Shown here: positions 47,920 to 56,264 of the stretch, piece by piece
How the letters are laid out: the number at the start of each line of letters is the position of its first letter
Position numbering within the stretch: position 1 is the first letter of the stretch
DNA from: an uncultured Acidobacteriia bacterium
GTDB lineage: Bacteria; Acidobacteriota; Terriglobia; Bryobacterales; Bryobacteraceae
DNA: 64,000 nucleotides
Direction of reading: 5' to 3'
Assembly (NCBI GenBank): GCA_903828455.1
Contig: CAIKMJ010000026.1
Coordinates: forward strand, 1-64,000
Made by a program: the position numbers and the translations under genes
Notes under the pieces: model-generated
Told to the model about the DNA's origin: nothing
Databases searched by the model: none
What the model saw: the letters and a program-made list of their open reading frames with translations, nothing else

Positions 47920-50388
47920 TTGAGTAACAGGGCTGTCCCCGCCGGCCGTGCGCCGGATCATCGGCCGCCTGCCGCTTCTGCCTGGTCCACGGTCTTGCTG
48001 GCAGGTGCGGCGGTGCTTGCGTGCCTGACCTTTTTGTCCGGAATCCATTCGGTCCAGGATCTGTATCGGGCGCTGACCGGCGTAAGGTCGATCTACGAGG
48101 TCGATGCGAAGGCGCTCAGCGTGGAAGGCGAACTGCAGTTTCGCATTCAGGAAAGCCGGCGCTGTTTTCTTGAGCTTCTGGTGGCCGCCGGCACCGAAGA
48201 GGAGCGGCTCAGCAAGGTGGCGCAGGCGCGGGAGGCCGACGCCCAGGTCAGCCTGCTGACCGGTCAGGCGACGGTGCTCACCCGTGATGGCGCCCATTTC
48301 GGGCAGTTCACCCGCGCGTGGGAGGACTATCTCGAAACCCGCGACGATATGATCGCGCTCTCCCTGCAGTCGCACGTGCCGGAGGCGCTGGCGATCGAGC
48401 GGGCCGCCGGCCGGGTTGCTTTCGACCGCGCGGCCGAGGCACTGCGACAGGGCAAGCGTCGCCTCGAGGCATCGTCGCAGCAGAAGGTGCAGACGGCCTG
48501 GCAGACCATGCGGCGCGCCTGCCTCGAAGTCGTTGCGCTGCTGGTAGTGTCGTTGCTTCTCGTGGTCGCCCTGCTGGCCGGTGCCACCGGCAGGCGGCGC
48601 ATGCTGCGGGAACTGCATGCGGCGTTCGGCGTGATCCATGAGAGCGAAACCCGCTTCCGGAATGTGTTTGAAAGCGCCTCGGTCGGAATCGTCGTCCTCG
48701 ATTGTTCCCTGCGGATCGTTTCGGTCAATCGTGCGATCAGCGAGATGTCCGGGCATTCTTCCTACGCAGTGACGGGCTGGCCCCTCGCCCGGCTGCTCCC
48801 GCTGGATGAGGACGGTGACGGCGCCGCGGCCCTCGCCGAACTTCTGCAGGGCCGCAGGTCCTGGTATCGCACCGAAAGCAGAATTCTTGGCAAAGCCGGC
48901 GAGACCGGCTGGATCCGTGCCAGCGCCTCGCTGGTCGGTTCTCCGGAGGAGCCGGCCGGCATCGTGCTGCTGTGCGAGGACATTCTGGAGCAAAAGCTGG
49001 CCCGCGAGCAGCTCGGTTATCAGGCGACGCACGATTCGCTCACCGGCCTCTGGAACCGCAGTCATTTCGAAGCGGTGCTCGCAGCCGATCTGCTGGCGGC
49101 GCCGGGCTCTGTCTCGCTGCTCTATATCGATCTCGACGGCTTCAAACTGGTGAACGACACGCTGGGCCACGCCGTTGGCGACGAACTGCTGCGGGCGGTG
49201 AGCAACCGTTTGCGGGACTGCGCCACGCAGAACGACAACGTGGCTCGCGTCGGCGGCGATGAATTTATTGTGCTGTGCCGCCGGGAGCAGGCGTGCTCCG
49301 AACCGTCGGCGTCCGCTCCGGAGGCGCAGCTTGCGGCCGGAATTCTGCGGGCGCTGCGCGAGCCGTTCCCAATTCGCGGGCAGGCCGTTACGGTTGGCGC
49401 CAGCATCGGCATCAGCCGCAGCCCCGAAGACGGCAGCACGGCAGCCGAGCTGATCCAGAATGCCGATACCGCCATGTACGAAGCCAAGCGCAGCCGCAAC
49501 GAAGGATTCTTCTACTTCGATGCCCGTATGCGCGAAGCCGCCCTCCGGCGCGCCCGCGTGGAAGCCTGCCTGCGCGGCGCCGTCGAGCGCGGCGAATTCA
49601 AAGTCGTTTTTCAGCCGCTTTACGATATTCACAGCGGCGCCCTGGTGCGTTTTGAAGCGCTGTGCCGGTGGCTGCATCCGGAACTCGGCCAGGTGCCTCC
49701 CGGCGAATTTATCCCCATCGCGGAGGAGACCGGCTCCATCGCCTCCATCGGGGAATGGGTCCTACGCGAGGCCTGCCGCCAGGCGCGCATCTGGCAGGGC
49801 GCCAATGCCGGTATCGGCGTCGCGGTCAACGTCTCGGCGGTCCAGTTCTCGAACCGCTACTTTGTGGAACTGGTTACCGAGTACCTCTCGGCCGAGCAAC
49901 TGCCCGCGTATCTGCTCGAACTGGAACTCACCGAAACCGCCGTCCTGCGCGACCGCGACGACGCGATCGAAAAAATGCGCCGTCTGCGAGCGATGGGAAT
50001 CCGGATCTCGCTCGATGACTTCGGCACCGGTTTCTCCTCGCTGAGTTCGCTTCAGTACCTGCCGGTCGATCGCCTGAAGATCGATCGCTCATTCACTACC
50101 ACGCTCGAAGACGGTCCGGCTTCCACTTCAATGGTTCAGTCCCTCGTCGCCATGAGCCGCACGCTCGGCCTGCGCGTCACGCTTGAAGGCATCGAGACCC
50201 GCCGCCAGATGGAGATCGCCCGCGAACTCGGTTGCCATGAAGCGCAGGGTTACTTCCTCGGCCGGCCGGAAAGCGGCGAAGATGCGCTGCGTCGTGTGTT
50301 GAAGGAAAATTCGCCCCCGCCCGCCGACCTGCTCCCGCCCCTTCCGCTCACGAGTCTGCCGGATTCGTCGCGGGCGGTACTCCGCTGA
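47920..50388 (+). CDS. PAS-GGDEF-EAL cyclic-di-GMP enzyme with membrane anchor
   Basis: The 822-residue signalling protein has an N-terminal helix ('WSTVLLAGAAVLACLTFLSG') and a second near residue 215 ('EVVALLVVSLLLVVALLAGA') bounding a periplasmic helical sensor domain. A PAS domain ('ASVGIVVLDCSLRIVSVNRA'), a GGDEF domain with intact 'RVGGDEFIVLCR' (about residue 446) and an EAL domain ('VRFEALCRWLHPELG', 'LDDFGTGFSSLSSLQYLPVD', 'EGIETRRQMEIARELG') follow. Both catalytic motifs are intact, so both synthesis and hydrolysis are possible. The RxxD inhibitory site before GGDEF reads TQND and is lost. TTG 47920 follows GGAG. Confidence 0.93.
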   Translation: MSNRAVPAGRAPDHRPPAASAWSTVLLAGAAVLACLTFLSGIHSVQDLYRALTGVRSIYEVDAKALSVEGELQFRIQESRRCFLELLVAAGTEEERLSKVAQAREADAQVSLLTGQATVLTRDGAHFGQFTRAWEDYLETRDDMIALSLQSHVPEALAIERAAGRVAFDRAAEALRQGKRRLEASSQQKVQTAWQTMRRACLEVVALLVVSLLLVVALLAGATGRRRMLRELHAAFGVIHESETRFRNVFESASVGIVVLDCSLRIVSVNRAISEMSGHSSYAVTGWPLARLLPLDEDGDGAAALAELLQGRRSWYRTESRILGKAGETGWIRASASLVGSPEEPAGIVLLCEDILEQKLAREQLGYQATHDSLTGLWNRSHFEAVLAADLLAAPGSVSLLYIDLDGFKLVNDTLGHAVGDELLRAVSNRLRDCATQNDNVARVGGDEFIVLCRREQACSEPSASAPEAQLAAGILRALREPFPIRGQAVTVGASIGISRSPEDGSTAAELIQNADTAMYEAKRSRNEGFFYFDARMREAALRRARVEACLRGAVERGEFKVVFQPLYDIHSGALVRFEALCRWLHPELGQVPPGEFIPIAEETGSIASIGEWVLREACRQARIWQGANAGIGVAVNVSAVQFSNRYFVELVTEYLSAEQLPAYLLELELTETAVLRDRDDAIEKMRRLRAMGIRISLDDFGTGFSSLSSLQYLPVDRLKIDRSFTTTLEDGPASTSMVQSLVAMSRTLGLRVTLEGIETRRQMEIARELGCHEAQGYFLGRPESGEDALRRVLKENSPPPADLLPPLPLTSLPDSSRAVLR

Positions 50389-51823: not shown

Positions 51824-51976
51824 TTACTTCTGGGCGGCCGTGTCCTTCTTAACCTTCTTCTTGCCGCCACCCTTTTTGGCCTTCTTCTTGGTGGTCGAGT
51901 CGCCCTGGGCGAACGTGAACGAGACGCTGCCGATTGCCAGACCGAGGCCGAGCGTTGCGATAAGAATCTTTTTCAT
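51824..51976 (-). CDS. Small secreted lysine-rich protein, paralogue 1
   Basis: A 50-residue protein with a strong signal peptide, 'MKKILIATLGLGLAIGSVS', ending in 'FTFAQG'. The mature ~26 residues are extremely basic ('KKKAKKGGGKKKVKKDTAAQ'). It was not recognised as a known family. It has an upstream AGGAG ribosome binding site and a 5' leader hairpin (52000-52018). It is the most divergent of three tandem paralogues (with 52241-52393 and 52671-52820). A secreted polycation could bind nucleic acid, polysaccharide, phospholipid or metal-phosphate surfaces; this is inference. Confidence 0.85.
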   Translation of the reverse strand: MKKILIATLGLGLAIGSVSFTFAQGDSTTKKKAKKGGGKKKVKKDTAAQK

Positions 51977-52240: not shown

Positions 52241-52393
52241 CTACTTGGTTTCGGCGGTGTCCTTCTTGCCCTTCTTGCCTTCGCCCTTCTTGCCGCCTTC
52301 CTTCTTTGCGGTGTCGCCGCCCTGGGCGAACGTGAACGAGATCGTGCCGAGAGCGATGCCGAGGCCGAGGGTCGCGATGAGGATCTTTTTCAT
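52241..52393 (-). CDS. Small secreted lysine-rich protein, paralogue 2
   Basis: A 50-residue protein, 'MKKILIATLGLGIALGTIS' plus 'FTFAQGG', then a basic/acidic Lys-Glu-Gly mature part ('KKEGGKKGEGKKGKKDTAET'). It is nearly identical to paralogue 3 (one residue longer) and similar to paralogue 1. It has a TATCAT -10-like box (52449-52444), a leader hairpin, an AGGAG ribosome binding site and its own terminator, so it is a monocistronic unit. It was missed by length-limited gene finding but all elements support a real gene. Confidence 0.88.
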   Translation of the reverse strand: MKKILIATLGLGIALGTISFTFAQGGDTAKKEGGKKGEGKKGKKDTAETK

Positions 52394-52670: not shown

Positions 52671-52820
52671 CTACTTGGTTTCGGCGGTGTCCTTCTTGCC
52701 CTTCTTGCCTTCGCCCTTCTTGCCGCCTTCCTTCTTTGCGTCGTCGCCCTGGGCGAACGTGAACGAGATGGTGCCGAGAGCGATGCCGAGGCCGAGGGTG
52801 GCGATGAGAATCTTTTTCAT
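52671..52820 (-). CDS. Small secreted lysine-rich protein, paralogue 3
   Basis: A 49-residue protein, 'MKKILIATLGLGIALGTIS' plus 'FTFAQGD', then 'KKEGGKKGEGKKGKKDTAET'. The start ATG 52820 follows AGGAGAAAACAAACTCGC; longer readings would run into its leader. Compared with paralogue 2 it lacks one residue after the cleavage site. The signal peptide is more conserved than the tail of paralogue 1, implying that export matters. Unknown family. Confidence 0.88.
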   Translation of the reverse strand: MKKILIATLGLGIALGTISFTFAQGDDAKKEGGKKGEGKKGKKDTAETK

Positions 52821-53008: not shown

Positions 53009-53275
53009 ATGAAGAAGCCTGACCTCGCCGACGCCATCGCCCGCCTGCGCCGCCTGCCAAAGGCCGCCGCCGCCGACCAGGTAGATCGCGCTATCCATCA
53101 GATTATAAAGGCATTGCGCCATGGACACCCCGCCCGGCTCCCCGGTCTCGGCACGCTCGAACCCGGCCACACCTGGACTTTCCGCCCGGAAAAGCCCAAA
53201 CCGGCCGCCGCTGCTCCGATGAAAGCGCCCGCCCCTGCAGCCTCGCGCCCGTCCCGTTCCGGAGGCCCGAAATGA
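53009..53275 (+). CDS. HU/IHF-like DNA-binding protein with basic tail
   Basis: The 88-residue protein resembles the HU/IHF family: 'MKKPDLADAIARLRRLPKAA' matches the HU N-terminal helices, and 'HPARLPGLGTLEPGHTWTF' matches the beta segment with its Gly-x-Gly-Thr-x-Glu motif. The usual DNA-bending arm sequence is missing or replaced by a Lys/Ala/Pro-rich tail ('PEKPKPAAAAPMKAPAPAAS'). It likely binds DNA, perhaps as a dimer with its neighbour. Its stop overlaps the start of the TIR-fusion gene by 4 bases (ATGA), so the two are translationally coupled. Confidence 0.75.
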   Translation: MKKPDLADAIARLRRLPKAAAADQVDRAIHQIIKALRHGHPARLPGLGTLEPGHTWTFRPEKPKPAAAAPMKAPAPAASRPSRSGGPK

Positions 53276-53892
53276 ACCGCCGCCGCTCCGTTTCGCGCTC
53301 CGAATCGGCCCCGTTCGAACCGGTCACAGTGGAACTCGATACAGCGGAACTTGCGCGCCTCATCCGCCGCCAGCTCCGCCACTCCCGCGCCGTCGAAATC
53401 GACGGCCTCGGCACCTTCGAACGTACTCCCGGCGGCGCAGTCTCTTTCCACGACTCCGCACGCCCCCGCATCTTCATCGCCTACGCCGTCGAAGACGCCC
53501 CTGCCGCCCTCCGCCTCAACGACTCCCTCGCCTCCCGCGGCTACTCCTCATGGCTCGACCGCCGCAAACTCCTCCCGGGCCAGAACTGGCCCCGCCGCAT
53601 CGAAGACGCCATCTCCCGCTCCGACTTCTTCATCGCCTGCTTCTCCCGCCACTCCGTCAAAAAACGCGGCGGCTTCCAGGCCGAAATCCGCTACGCCCTC
53701 GACTGCGCCCGCCGAGTCCCGCTCGACGACGTCTTCCTCATCCCCGTCCGCCTCGACGATTGCCCCGTCCCCGCCCGCATCTGCCGCGAAACCCAGTACG
53801 TCGATCTCTTCCCCGACTGGGACGCCGGCTTCGCCCGCATCGCCGGCATCGTCGACGCCCAGCACGCCGGCCGGCCCCGCGGCCCGGCCTGA
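53272..53892 (+). CDS. HU-like-TIR domain fusion protein
   Basis: The 206-residue protein has an N-terminal HU-like segment (about residues 18-60, 'ELDTAELARLIRRQLRHSRA', 'VEIDGLGTFERTPGGAVSFH') and a TIR domain (about 64-180). TIR landmarks are 'PRIFIAYAVEDAPAALRLND', 'GYSSWLDRRKLLPGQNWPRR', 'SDFFIACFSRHSVKKRGGFQ' and the candidate NADase glutamate E138 in 'FQAEIRYALDCARR'. Bacterial TIR proteins commonly cleave NAD+ or make signalling nucleotides in anti-phage defence. The preceding HU-like gene shares the Gly-Leu-Gly-Thr-x-Glu motif and overlaps it by 4 bases. Function is unproven. Confidence 0.82.
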   Translation: MNRRRSVSRSESAPFEPVTVELDTAELARLIRRQLRHSRAVEIDGLGTFERTPGGAVSFHDSARPRIFIAYAVEDAPAALRLNDSLASRGYSSWLDRRKLLPGQNWPRRIEDAISRSDFFIACFSRHSVKKRGGFQAEIRYALDCARRVPLDDVFLIPVRLDDCPVPARICRETQYVDLFPDWDAGFARIAGIVDAQHAGRPRGPA

Positions 53893-53953: not shown

Positions 53954-53989
53954 GGTGTTACTTGAGGTGTTACTTAGGGAGTTACTTAA
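53954..53989. repeat. 12-bp tandem repeat at the tadG-like gene end
   Basis: Three imperfect units (ggtgttacttga, ggtgttacttag, ggagttacttaa) span the stop codon of the minus-strand TadG-like gene, so its end repeats an AAG-TAA pattern. No function is apparent. Confidence 0.8.
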
Positions 53990-55283
53990 TCAGCGTCGCC
54001 GAAGACTTCGTCAATCCCGTGTAGGTTCCGGACGTGTCGTTCTGGATCGTGCTGCTGCCGCTGACCACGATCGTCTTGGCGATGAACGCGGCGTAAAACG
54101 CCGTGCTCGTGGCGCCGGTGAAGTTGAATGCCGTCGTCGGAAAGTAATAGGTCCCGGTGATCAGCCCGGTCCCCGAATTCGCAATGACGTTTGCCGACGC
54201 ATAAGTCTGCGACCGGTCCTGAAAAAAGACAATTCCCTGGTAGGTCCCCGAACTGGGCGCCGACAAAGTGGCGATCGCACTGCCCTGAATGGAAATTGGC
54301 GCAATCGTATACGAACCGCTCGCCGTGTTGTAAAACATGACGTGAGTTCCGTTGAGAGTTCCCGAGTTGCTAACCGTGAGCCCGCCGCCGTTCAGAATAT
54401 AGTTGCCGGGATTCAGATTGAGCGTTGCCGCGCCGGTAACCGTGATGCCGCCGCAATAGACACCCGGGCTTACGGTCGCTGAGTTGGCGTTGCCGATCGA
54501 ATAATTCGTGTGATCGCATCCCGAGTAACTCGGCGCCGGCAGCGAGGCCAGCGGATCGGCCACCGCGGTCGCGCCGGTTGTTGCCGTAGGCGATACCGTG
54601 GAAGTTCCGCCCAGGGATACGCTCCCCACCACCTTGATGAAGTTTCCGCTCACGTGCGACGAACCGGTCACATACAACGCCGTCGTGCTCGACGAGTTCA
54701 CATACACCCCGCATCCCGACGCCGTGATCGACGACGAACCTGTCACCGACACCGCCTGCGCAATATTGCCCGTGCCGATTTGATAAATGCACGACGTGCT
54801 CGGAATGCTCGTCACGCCCGCGATCGCCGACGCCTGAATCGACGCAATCTTGTACCCCACGCCGAACAGAAACAAATTAGGCGCGGAAGTCGAAACGTTC
54901 GCCTGAACCCACATGCTCGGGCTGTTACCCGTCACGCCCGGCGGTGTTGTGTTGTTCTCCACCATCGTCGCCGTGAATGTCGGCGGCGAATCCACCGTCG
55001 TATAGAGGCAACCGGCCTGCAGTGAAGTGGTCGGAGGATAAACTCCCGCGCACGTGTAAGTCGTCCCGCAGCTGATTGTGCTGCAGTTGTCCCCGTTGGC
55101 CTTGGCGTATACCGCCGCTGCCGACGCCGCCGCATCCGCCGCCGTCTGCACGCGCGTCTTCAGGAAGTAGGCCCACCCCAGATCTACTGAAAGCCCCATG
55201 GCCGCGAACAGAAAAATCAGACTGAGGCTCACCGCCAGCAGCGCCTGCCCGCCGCGACGCCCGGAATGTTTCGCGCTCTGCAT
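53982..55283 (-). CDS. TadG-like secreted/pilus-associated protein
   Basis: The 433-residue protein begins with a Tad-type prepilin-like N-terminus ('RRGGQALLAVSLSLIFLFAA', 'MGLSVDLGWAYFLKTRVQTA', 'ADAAASAAAVYAKANGD'), the Flp-pilus-assembly TadE/F/G signature. The remainder is Ser/Thr/Gly-rich repetitive beta sequence ('ASGCGVYVNSSSTTALYVTG', 'GAATLNLNPGNYILNGGGLT'). The single N-terminal helix would anchor it in the inner membrane. The start ATG 55283 overlaps the upstream TadE-like stop by one base. No TadA/B/C or Flp gene is in the window. Confidence 0.85.
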   Translation of the reverse strand: MQSAKHSGRRGGQALLAVSLSLIFLFAAMGLSVDLGWAYFLKTRVQTAADAAASAAAVYAKANGDNCSTISCGTTYTCAGVYPPTTSLQAGCLYTTVDSPPTFTATMVENNTTPPGVTGNSPSMWVQANVSTSAPNLFLFGVGYKIASIQASAIAGVTSIPSTSCIYQIGTGNIAQAVSVTGSSSITASGCGVYVNSSSTTALYVTGSSHVSGNFIKVVGSVSLGGTSTVSPTATTGATAVADPLASLPAPSYSGCDHTNYSIGNANSATVSPGVYCGGITVTGAATLNLNPGNYILNGGGLTVSNSGTLNGTHVMFYNTASGSYTIAPISIQGSAIATLSAPSSGTYQGIVFFQDRSQTYASANVIANSGTGLITGTYYFPTTAFNFTGATSTAFYAAFIAKTIVVSGSSTIQNDTSGTYTGLTKSSATLIK

Positions 55284-55789
55284 CAGAACAGAATCCTTTG
55301 CCGCGATTTTGCGCCCACCGTGAAGTCATTCGGGGGATCCGAATTAGGCGGCCAGAAGATCGCCACCGGGTTCTTCAGAATGTAAGTCGCGCTGATGGTG
55401 ACGTCGTTGCCCACCGCATTGTAGGACGCGTTCGGAAACTGAGTTGACGTGCCCGTGCAACTGCTCGCCGGGTTGCAGGTCGTCGTGCCGCTCCCGTCTG
55501 TCATCTTCAGAATCACGCTGCCGCTGCTCAGCGCCATTCCGGCGCCAACGAAGAACGTAGCCACGTTACCCACCGTGATCGTGCAGCTGTTGCTGTTCGC
55601 GGTACACGTCGCGCCATGCAGCGTCACGTACCGCGCCGTCGCCTCCGTCGCAAAGGCAAGATTGTGGAACTCCCACATATCGATCGAGATCGCCACAATG
55701 GAAATCGTCATGAACGTCAGCGGAATGCCCAGCAGCGTAAATTCGATCAGCGCATTCCCTCTTCGCCCGTTTGCTCTGCGCAGTCGCAT
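55283..55789 (-). CDS. TadE-like pseudopilin
   Basis: The 168-residue protein has the TadE motif 'RRGNALIEFTLLGIPLTFMT', whose Glu is the conserved prepilin residue after the processing site, followed by a hydrophobic helix ('ISIVAISIDMWEFHNLAFAT', 'EATARYVTLHG'). The C-terminal part is a short beta domain with cysteines ('TCTANSNSCTITVGN', 'CNPASSCTGTSTQ'). It lies between the other TadE-like gene (4 bases) and tadG-like. It should be a minor pilin or pilus assembly subunit. Confidence 0.88.
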   Translation of the reverse strand: MRLRRANGRRGNALIEFTLLGIPLTFMTISIVAISIDMWEFHNLAFATEATARYVTLHGATCTANSNSCTITVGNVATFFVGAGMALSSGSVILKMTDGSGTTTCNPASSCTGTSTQFPNASYNAVGNDVTISATYILKNPVAIFWPPNSDPPNDFTVGAKSRQRILF

Positions 55790-55793
55790 GCCG

Positions 55794-56264
55794 TCAGCTC
55801 CGCTGCCGCATCTTCACCGTGCGGTTAATCGTGAGTGTTCCGGGCAGGATGCCCGGAATCGGAATCAGCTGCGGCGTCAGATACACCACCGTCACCGCGG
55901 TCGCTGTGTTGCCGTCCGGTCCCGTGACCGAAGAAGCGGTCACCGCCACCGGCGCCGAAGTCGTAACCGTTGTGCCGGTCCCGCATGTCGAAAGTCCCGA
56001 CCCCACGTTCGGCAGGTAGCGGAACTGGTCGAGCGCGTAGCTGCACGCCGTCGTCGCGTCTGTCAGCGTGCTGGAGCTGGACGAACAATAAGTCGCCCCC
56101 ACGCTTGCCGCGGTCTGCGACGCAATCAGCGAATACGCGAAGAACCCGTAATCGTACGCGCCCACGAAAAGAAAGATGTACCAGGGAATCAGTAATGAGA
56201 ACTCAATGACGTTGCTTCCGCTGCGCCGGCCGACGTGGCGGCGCGGTATACGCGAATCGGTCAT
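55794..56264 (-). CDS. TadE-like pseudopilin
   Basis: The 156-residue protein has 'RRSGSNVIEFSLLIPWYIFL', a TadE-type processing motif and helix, followed by 'GFFAYSLIASQTAASVGATY' and a small beta domain with cysteines ('CSSSSSTLTDATTACSYALD', 'GSGLSTCGTGTTVTTS'). It is the first gene of the three-gene minus-strand group TadE-TadE-TadG. The C-terminus is basic ('GTLTINRTVKMRQRS'). Confidence 0.87.
   Translation of the reverse strand: MTDSRIPRRHVGRRSGSNVIEFSLLIPWYIFLFVGAYDYGFFAYSLIASQTAASVGATYCSSSSSTLTDATTACSYALDQFRYLPNVGSGLSTCGTGTTVTTSAPVAVTASSVTGPDGNTATAVTVVYLTPQLIPIPGILPGTLTINRTVKMRQRS

Follow-up and report, generated by a model that had tools for sequence, protein, structure and literature searches.

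A near-core gene pair of Bryobacteraceae encoding an HU-like protein and a putatively HU-gated TIR protein

Introduction

Most of what is known about TIR enzymes of bacteria comes from defence systems. Among solved structures, the TIR domains closest to the one described here, by both profile and fold, are those of SPARTA. A study of a TIR-APAZ/Ago complex names E77A as the catalytic mutant and mentions that self-association switches on other TIR systems (PMC10474274). A different precedent is NatR-NatT, described as a core-genome toxin-antitoxin pair of another bacterium, the toxin of which depletes NAD and NADP (PMC11535050). On the side of DNA-binding proteins, the closest known families are HU/IHF (Pfam Bac_DNA_binding) and the HU-CCDC81-like (PF18175) and HU-HIG (PF18291) domains; the Pfam descriptions of the latter two name fusions to wHTH, Ig and glycine-rich parts, not to TIR.

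Here we describe a pair of genes located in a 64,000-nt stretch of DNA from an uncultured member of Bryobacteraceae (contig CAIKMJ010000026.1; hereafter, the window). The first gene encodes a small HU-like protein, HU1, and the second encodes HU-TIR, in which a TIR domain is fused to half of an HU domain. The pair resembles SPARTA in being a two-gene unit with TIR on one of the proteins, and the glutamate at the catalytic position of the SPARTA TIR domain is aligned with that of HU-TIR. Unlike SPARTA, HU-TIR has no room for APAZ, since only 16 of its 206 residues lie beyond the TIR match; it gives no APAZ match and carries an HU-type part in its place. No short Argonaute was found among the eight window neighbours or the 115 neighbour representatives, the latter predicted with a crude gene caller. 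Models of Thoeris ThsB match HU-TIR weakly (best E 0.0017), the constant partner being HU1, and no ThsA was detected among the same eight window neighbours and 115 representatives. The pair, near-core in its family, resembles the core-genome pair NatR-NatT in this respect, but the passages describing the latter name no HU or TIR part (PMC11535050). With HU/IHF, the pair shares helices 1-2, the first strands and the GFG/GLG turn; however, the beta-arm and helix 3 are absent from HU1, and in HU-TIR helix 1 and a portion of helix 2 are missing as well. PF18175 matches all 73 HU1 proteins and 39 of the 74 HU-TIR proteins at E<=1, although the window proteins themselves stay below the curated cut-offs of PF18175 and PF18291.

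A literature search by title and start of abstract brought up no named HU-TIR pair, in agreement with the remark in the preliminary description of this locus that the combination was not a recognised one; an earlier mention is possible, for instance in a 2017 paper on HU clades. Reduced HU folds and TIR enzymes are both known, and what was new to the search is a putatively split, armless HU module linked to a near-core TIR protein.

Materials and methods

Loci (L) and genomes (G) are referred to by number. L001-L088 and L131-L210 were pooled, L002, L089 and L090 being left out and L091-L130 unused; the pool holds 167 loci, 135 of which are distinct once copies of the same DNA are removed. L025, L031, L061, L086 and L087 are counted within the 135. 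Family set A1 excluded L002, L025, L031, L089 and L090 as partial or TIR-only, L061 and L086 because of an interrupted reading frame within the match, L087 because of a deletion, and eight near-copies; family set A2 had the same exclusions and, in addition, L030. The 238 nearest neighbours of the pair were reduced to 119 cluster representatives, of which 115 were scanned, genes being predicted with a crude codon-score caller. Coevolution was analysed by mean-field DCA on 129 HU1/HU-TIR pairs, and dN/dS was computed for 45 locus pairs that were 75-99% alike, leaving out saturated dS. Trees of rpoB and HU-TIR were compared for 23 of 29 genomes, the rest lacking either an rpoB stretch fit for use or an HU-TIR that could be aligned. 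Upstream words were searched in the 250 nt before HU1 of 128 distinct loci.

Results and discussion

HU-type parts of the two proteins

HU1 (ORF1, 53009-53275, forward strand, 88 aa) and HU-TIR (ORF2, 53272-53892, forward strand, 206 aa) constitute a real and old gene pair, which confirms the initial observation together with its coordinates and the ATGA overlap (53272-53275). HU1 is matched by Pfam Bac_DNA_binding with 26.5 bits (cut-off 22.4), residues 1-54 aligning with model positions 1-54 of 90. The best match of the HU1 family profile is the solved HU 1hue (E 6.6e-11), over residues 1-57 only. These matches bear out the assignment of ORF1 as HU-like. The predicted structure of HU1 is weak (mean pLDDT 62), with helices 3-14 and 18-37 followed by a short sheet of strands 42-44, 48-51 and 57-60; at this low confidence, no helix is seen after residue 37 and nothing past 57-60. 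With Foldseek, this model reached its best HU match at only E 3.6e-3, which, like the weakness of the model, counts against an explanation based on an HU module.

The HU layout includes a DNA-wrapping arm and a third helix. Since the HU match stops at position 54-57 of 90 and the model is empty beyond the sheet, HU1 appears to be devoid of both; indeed, the long beta-arm and C-terminal helix 3 that characterize the HU family have no counterpart in HU1-type proteins, the median length of which is 69 aa. Their basic character is clear, with a median net charge of +7 over 129 proteins. The 88-aa HU1 of the window has a long basic and proline-containing tail that is atypical of the family; the basic tail pointed out previously is therefore present in this protein but unusual among its relatives. 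The proposal that the pair comprises a nucleoid-type DNA-binding sensor holds only in part: the basic character of HU1-type proteins fits it, whereas the lack of the beta-arm and helix 3 weakens it. Ordinary HU genes of the window's genome are separate, three full genes and a contig-edge piece scoring 49.6-110.6 bits against 25.3 for HU1.

The HU-like segment that had been noted in ORF2 covers residues 24-60 (53341-53451, forward strand). In the window protein alone it is below every Pfam cut-off, whereas across the family HU-CCDC81_bac_2 matches 39 of 74 members at E<=1, the best at 1.3e-5. The HU-TIR model is good (mean pLDDT 87), with the half-HU and TIR parts both predicted confidently: a single helix (24-37) and strands 40-43, 47-51 and 57-60 precede a full TIR domain. 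VIA-align rows for this model list no HU match, but they cover mostly residues 62-201 and hence are uninformative on the half-HU. Alignment of the HU1 and HU-TIR family profiles with hhalign (probability 96%, E 2.5e-9, 41 columns) indicates that the two HU parts have a common ancestry, in accordance with the duplication suggested earlier. The two share the GLG of the previously proposed GLGTxE motif, but its T and E are not conserved; the family-wide motif is GLG-x-F, the counterpart of GFGTF in HU. Overall, the fold families of both proteins are well supported by profile comparison. Structure prediction without any HU-like fold had been named as an outcome that would speak against the pair's interpretation; the sequence matches indicate the opposite, the ORF1 model being weak.

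TIR domain and its conserved glutamate

The TIR domain assigned to ORF2 is clear: Pfam TIR_2 matches residues 67-190 (53470-53841, forward strand) with 98.7 bits against a cut-off of 28. The best fold match of this part is to SPARTA TIR domains (8ifl_A, Z 17.9, 1.9 A over 129 residues); rows within 1 of each other count as equal, which applies to those listed next. The profile alignment, counted by hand, places Glu138 (codon 53683-53685, forward strand) opposite Glu77 of the TIR protein of CrtSPARTA. Glu138 is glutamate in all 135 distinct loci, which were fetched as good matches, so that weak or broken copies are under-represented among them. D96, G103, W106, F135, P150, P158, R160, C164, P167 and P181 are likewise invariant in the 135 loci, while the mean identity of alignment columns in the HU-TIR family is 50%. 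The residue singled out at the outset as a candidate catalytic glutamate is thus retained, and its loss in homologues, which would have undermined that idea, is not seen in any of these loci. HU-TIR accordingly displays both the fold of TIR NADases and a glutamate at their catalytic position, and we infer from these alignments that it may cleave NAD+ through Glu138.

Two loci contain altered copies of the gene. In L086, the frame of HU-TIR is broken between the half-HU and TIR parts, and in L087, a deletion spans their junction; either may represent decay or an assembly error. The surveyed genomes also encode other TIR proteins with a similar TIR domain and different fusion partners (L215-L226), which by eye are kinase-like, NTPase-like, phosphoesterase-like and formylglycine-enzyme-like. 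No match to the HU1 profile was found beside these proteins in the 12 stretches examined, several of which are cut by contig ends.

Distribution, inheritance and selection

The HU-TIR family is found in 118 of 150 sampled Bryobacteraceae genomes at E<=1e-60, with one such copy in each. At E<=1e-10, the profile matches 132 of the 150 genomes. Among the 14 genomes that lie between the two thresholds, G027, G160 and G162 have partial or split copies; of the remainder with positions listed, G026, G065 and G105 are matched over the TIR part only. The other 18 genomes are without a match, and 12 of them belong to the 109 that are >=90% complete and <=5% contaminated, which counts against the explanation we prefer below. 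In the order sample, 184 of 250 genomes match at E<=1e-25, and all 184 belong to the window's family. In the class sample of 299 genomes, 57 match at 1e-40, 56 of them within the family and a single one (G271) outside. The latter carries the only full HU-TIR pair outside the family in that sample (L151); its protein is 82% identical to that of the family locus L199, suggesting transfer or a mis-binned contig. A set of 59 relative loci comes from Bryobacterales, Solibacter and other Acidobacteria, with the exception of L090, a TIR-only Anaerolinea locus.

Codon comparison gives median dN/dS values of 0.10 (43 pairs of HU-TIR) and 0.12 (41 pairs of HU1), which demonstrates, at that level, purifying selection on both genes. 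Given these low values and the recurrence in 184 of 250 order genomes, the HU-TIR family is not a product of chance. The HU-TIR and rpoB trees broadly agree: their distances correlate at 0.78, a value reached in none of 5000 permutations, and 5 of 20 splits are common to both trees, whereas 500 shuffles of the labels never gave more than 2. Furthermore, in the HU-TIR tree, 11 genomes of other genera group apart from 12 of the window's genus with a support of 97. The exact rpoB topology is nevertheless rejected by the HU-TIR alignment (AU p 4.8e-5), so that some transfer is possible. We thus discarded exact vertical descent; the conflicts may be due to the short protein, to partial rpoB in some genomes or to transfer. 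Inheritance of the pair appears to be largely vertical, with the chromosome.

Pairing of HU1 with HU-TIR

HU1 lies upstream of HU-TIR in all 133 loci that could be checked, 129 of them recognized by tblastn and four by profile (E 7e-17 to 5.7e-10); L031 and L146 are at contig edges. In 109 of 128 loci, the start codon assigned to HU-TIR comes before the HU1 stop is complete, a figure that leans upwards because the start nearest to the HU1 stop was chosen. In 24 genomes that lack a good copy of HU-TIR, a number that leaves out G015, a contig-edge fragment, no HU1-profile match exceeds 36.3 bits among the candidates considered, up to 150 in some genomes. Of six genomes with HU-TIR, five give HU1-profile scores of 73.6-98.1 and one, G025, in which HU1 is reduced, scores 29.3. 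By these profile scores, HU1 and HU-TIR appear to be absent together.

In six loci (L030, L152, L154, L155, L156 and L175), HU1 is reduced to helices 1-2, the sheet and its GLG turn having been lost, and in all six the sheet of HU-TIR is retained. Moreover, G47 of HU-TIR, the second glycine of the GLG turn, is kept in 133 of 135 loci, the other two having gaps. What is always kept is therefore helices 1-2 of HU1 and the sheet of HU-TIR, which we read as one HU-type module extending across two proteins. In L030, HU-TIR seems by eye to have a longer HU-like helical part. DCA revealed no excess of couplings between HU1 and the half-HU in the 129 pairs: 6 of the top 20 (4.6 expected), 9 of the top 50 (11.5 expected) and 29 of the top 100 (23.1 expected). 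HU1/HU-TIR heterodimers are plausible, but this test gave no signal for them.

Genomic context

Downstream of the pair, on the same strand, uvrC is found in 50 of the 135 distinct loci (49 of the 131 with enough flank). Upstream, rrf2/cysK is present in 21 loci (of 127 with enough flank), and 3 loci have both uvrC and rrf2/cysK. A putative secreted protein is encoded upstream in 17 of the 135, and none of these neighbours is present in 50. In the window's genus, rrf2 lies upstream in 11 of the 16 loci listed. The window itself contains neither uvrC nor cysK, and its only relative of rrf2 is distant (25 kb away, 33% identity); here the pair sits between Tad-like genes and, at its opposite flank, the peptide genes with a transaldolase. 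Exclusively housekeeping surroundings of homologues, without TIR activity, had been put forward as an argument against a defence or DNA-sensing role. Such surroundings are seen in part: they apply to 71 of the 135 loci (uvrC or rrf2/cysK), less the 3 counted twice.

PADLOC gave no match in the eight nearest ORFs of the window. Among the 115 neighbour representatives its matches were scattered, with 22 models hit by one member each and mad2 by two; some E-values are strong (2.6e-37, 3e-34), but no model recurs beyond two, in a scan run without a random-gene control. For single loci this test is weak because of the crude gene caller and because at least one large cluster contains antisense uvrC stretches. 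The Pfam assignments of the neighbours, for the first 25 of 181 families, are a mixture of metabolic, transport and surface proteins. One of two patterns was matched by 20 stretches of viral contigs, none of which was confirmed as a relative; phage records gave no match. Plasmids yielded 27 matching records; none of these matches spans 80% of the query, and the best ten of the 27 start at residue 52 or later.

We therefore rejected a mobile or defence-island setting: the pair is near-core, has no confirmed relative in the viral contigs and phage records searched and lies among housekeeping or mixed neighbours. Rather than being patchy, it occurs in most family genomes and in one genome outside. 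A defence-island setting is not supported, given one near-core copy per genome in a single family and no PADLOC match in the eight nearest window ORFs. This non-mobile distribution argues for a physiological or damage-response switch over a mobile anti-phage cassette.

LexA-box patterns upstream of HU1 occurred in 0, 1 and 2 of 128 loci, compared with 0.1, 0.5 and 0.8 in shuffled sequences; with no clear excess, SOS control of HU1 was rejected. Between HU1 and the divergent gene, the word ATTAAAATC is present in 31 of 128 loci (at most 5 in shuffles) and CGGTCACA in 20 of 128 (at most 10 in shuffles). TTCTTCAT and TCTCCTT look as though they belong to the translation start of the peptide gene and its ribosome-binding site. 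The conserved words are possibly parts of a shared promoter or operator.

Possible mechanism and alternatives

The reading that we favour, tentatively and somewhat short of an even chance, is that the two proteins form a unit in which a largely vertically kept TIR NAD+ enzyme is gated by one HU-type module distributed over both. HU1, with helices 1-2 and its sheet, and the half-HU of HU-TIR would join via the HU fold, and the joined parts would make an armless HU-type module carrying the TIR enzyme. Through its basic surface, HU1 would keep the enzyme dispersed or anchored, probably to DNA or to some other nucleic acid, although the missing arms count against classical DNA bending of the HU type. 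A change of state, such as DNA damage, an altered nucleoid, infection or other stress, would then cluster the TIR domains, which would cleave NAD+ through Glu138, so that the cell is stalled or killed or a nucleotide signal is produced. No trigger gene was found. The unit would be inherited largely with the chromosome and serve a near-core function of the family. Such a pattern may favour a physiological or damage-response switch, with a fixed defence function as an alternative.

The nearest rival is a toxin-antitoxin-like arrangement. HU1 would act as an antitoxin that binds the half-HU and silences the TIR enzyme, loss of HU1 would free the toxin, and DNA would not be directly involved, except perhaps in autoregulation. 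Mobility and a patchy distribution are common among toxin-antitoxin genes, whereas the present pair is near-core in one family, and we regard this arrangement as unlikely, although several features fit it. Indeed, the small basic protein is encoded first, in an operon where it overlaps the enzyme gene, as expected of an antitoxin, and the strict pairing and joint absence of HU1 and HU-TIR are in line with it; moreover, NatR-NatT provides a core-genome, NAD-depleting precedent (PMC11535050).

An anti-phage function, with the HU part sensing phage DNA and TIR depleting NAD+, we consider less probable still. Its attraction is that the TIR lineage and Glu138 resemble those of defence-system TIRs; in addition, HU-type domains have reportedly been proposed, in a 2017 paper on HU clades, to act in mobile-element conflicts. 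The near-core presence in one family argues against it, as do the PADLOC results for the eight nearby window ORFs and the 115 neighbour representatives, the lack of a confirmed viral or phage relative and the partial plasmid matches. Finally, many TIR domains serve as scaffolds, but that this one is non-enzymatic, with residues kept for structural reasons, is improbable given the alignment of Glu138 with the catalytic Glu77 and its invariance, together with that of nearby residues, in columns that are on average 50% identical.

Returning to the HU-gated enzyme, a stronger version of it would make the pair a chromosomal, largely vertical TIR NAD+ enzyme whose switch is a histone-like module split across two proteins, reading the state of the cell's own DNA and responding either by depleting NAD+ or with a nucleotide signal; this would be a core function throughout the family. 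In this full form the proposal is doubtful. Its occurrence in most sampled family members, at a quiet site of the chromosome, hints at an inherited, built-in switch and not at a mobile antiviral cassette. With its catalytic position intact, the TIR protein is maintained by purifying selection in roughly four in five of the sampled family genomes and has a constant partner wherever this can be checked; it points to a core role for bacterial TIR enzymes, and the pair points to the reduced HU fold as a possible protein-coupling module. As both genes are small and readily expressed, the pair offers a direct test of whether TIR enzymes serve ordinary physiology.

Neighbouring genes

The gene divergent from HU1 encodes a secreted-looking, Lys-rich peptide of 49 aa (52671-52820, reverse strand) and is regarded as context outside the unit. 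It is the nearest of three tandem copies, the others being at 52241-52393 and 51824-51976 on the same strand, with products of about 50 aa each. By eye, the peptides follow the pattern MKK...FAQ with a K-rich tail, and a terminator-like stretch follows each gene. None of five peptide proteins has a Pfam match above the cut-off. The peptide family was found in 46 of the 72 genomes given, at 1-4 places each, with one weak match outside Bryobacteraceae.

A divergent peptide gene adjoins the HU1/HU-TIR pair in 68 of the 123 loci with enough flank, 64 of the 68 peptides having themselves built the profile that counted them. The peptide was rejected as a third component, since it occurs without the pair, sometimes still before rrf2-cysK; it appears to be an old neighbour and not a part. 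In L227, L233, L236, L238 and L241, a peptide gene lies ahead of rrf2-cysK in the same orientation, including in genomes without a good HU-TIR. In L227 and L233, the pair is absent and the peptide-rrf2-cysK genes remain. Judging by this gene order, peptide-rrf2-cysK is an old unit.

On its other side, the window pair is convergent with three consecutive ORFs (53982-56264, reverse strand). The first of these matches Pfam Tad (TadE/G-like, E 2.6e-8), and the second and third have no Pfam match. Further away, a PAS-GGDEF-EAL protein with a four-helix sensory part is encoded at 47920-50388 on the forward strand.
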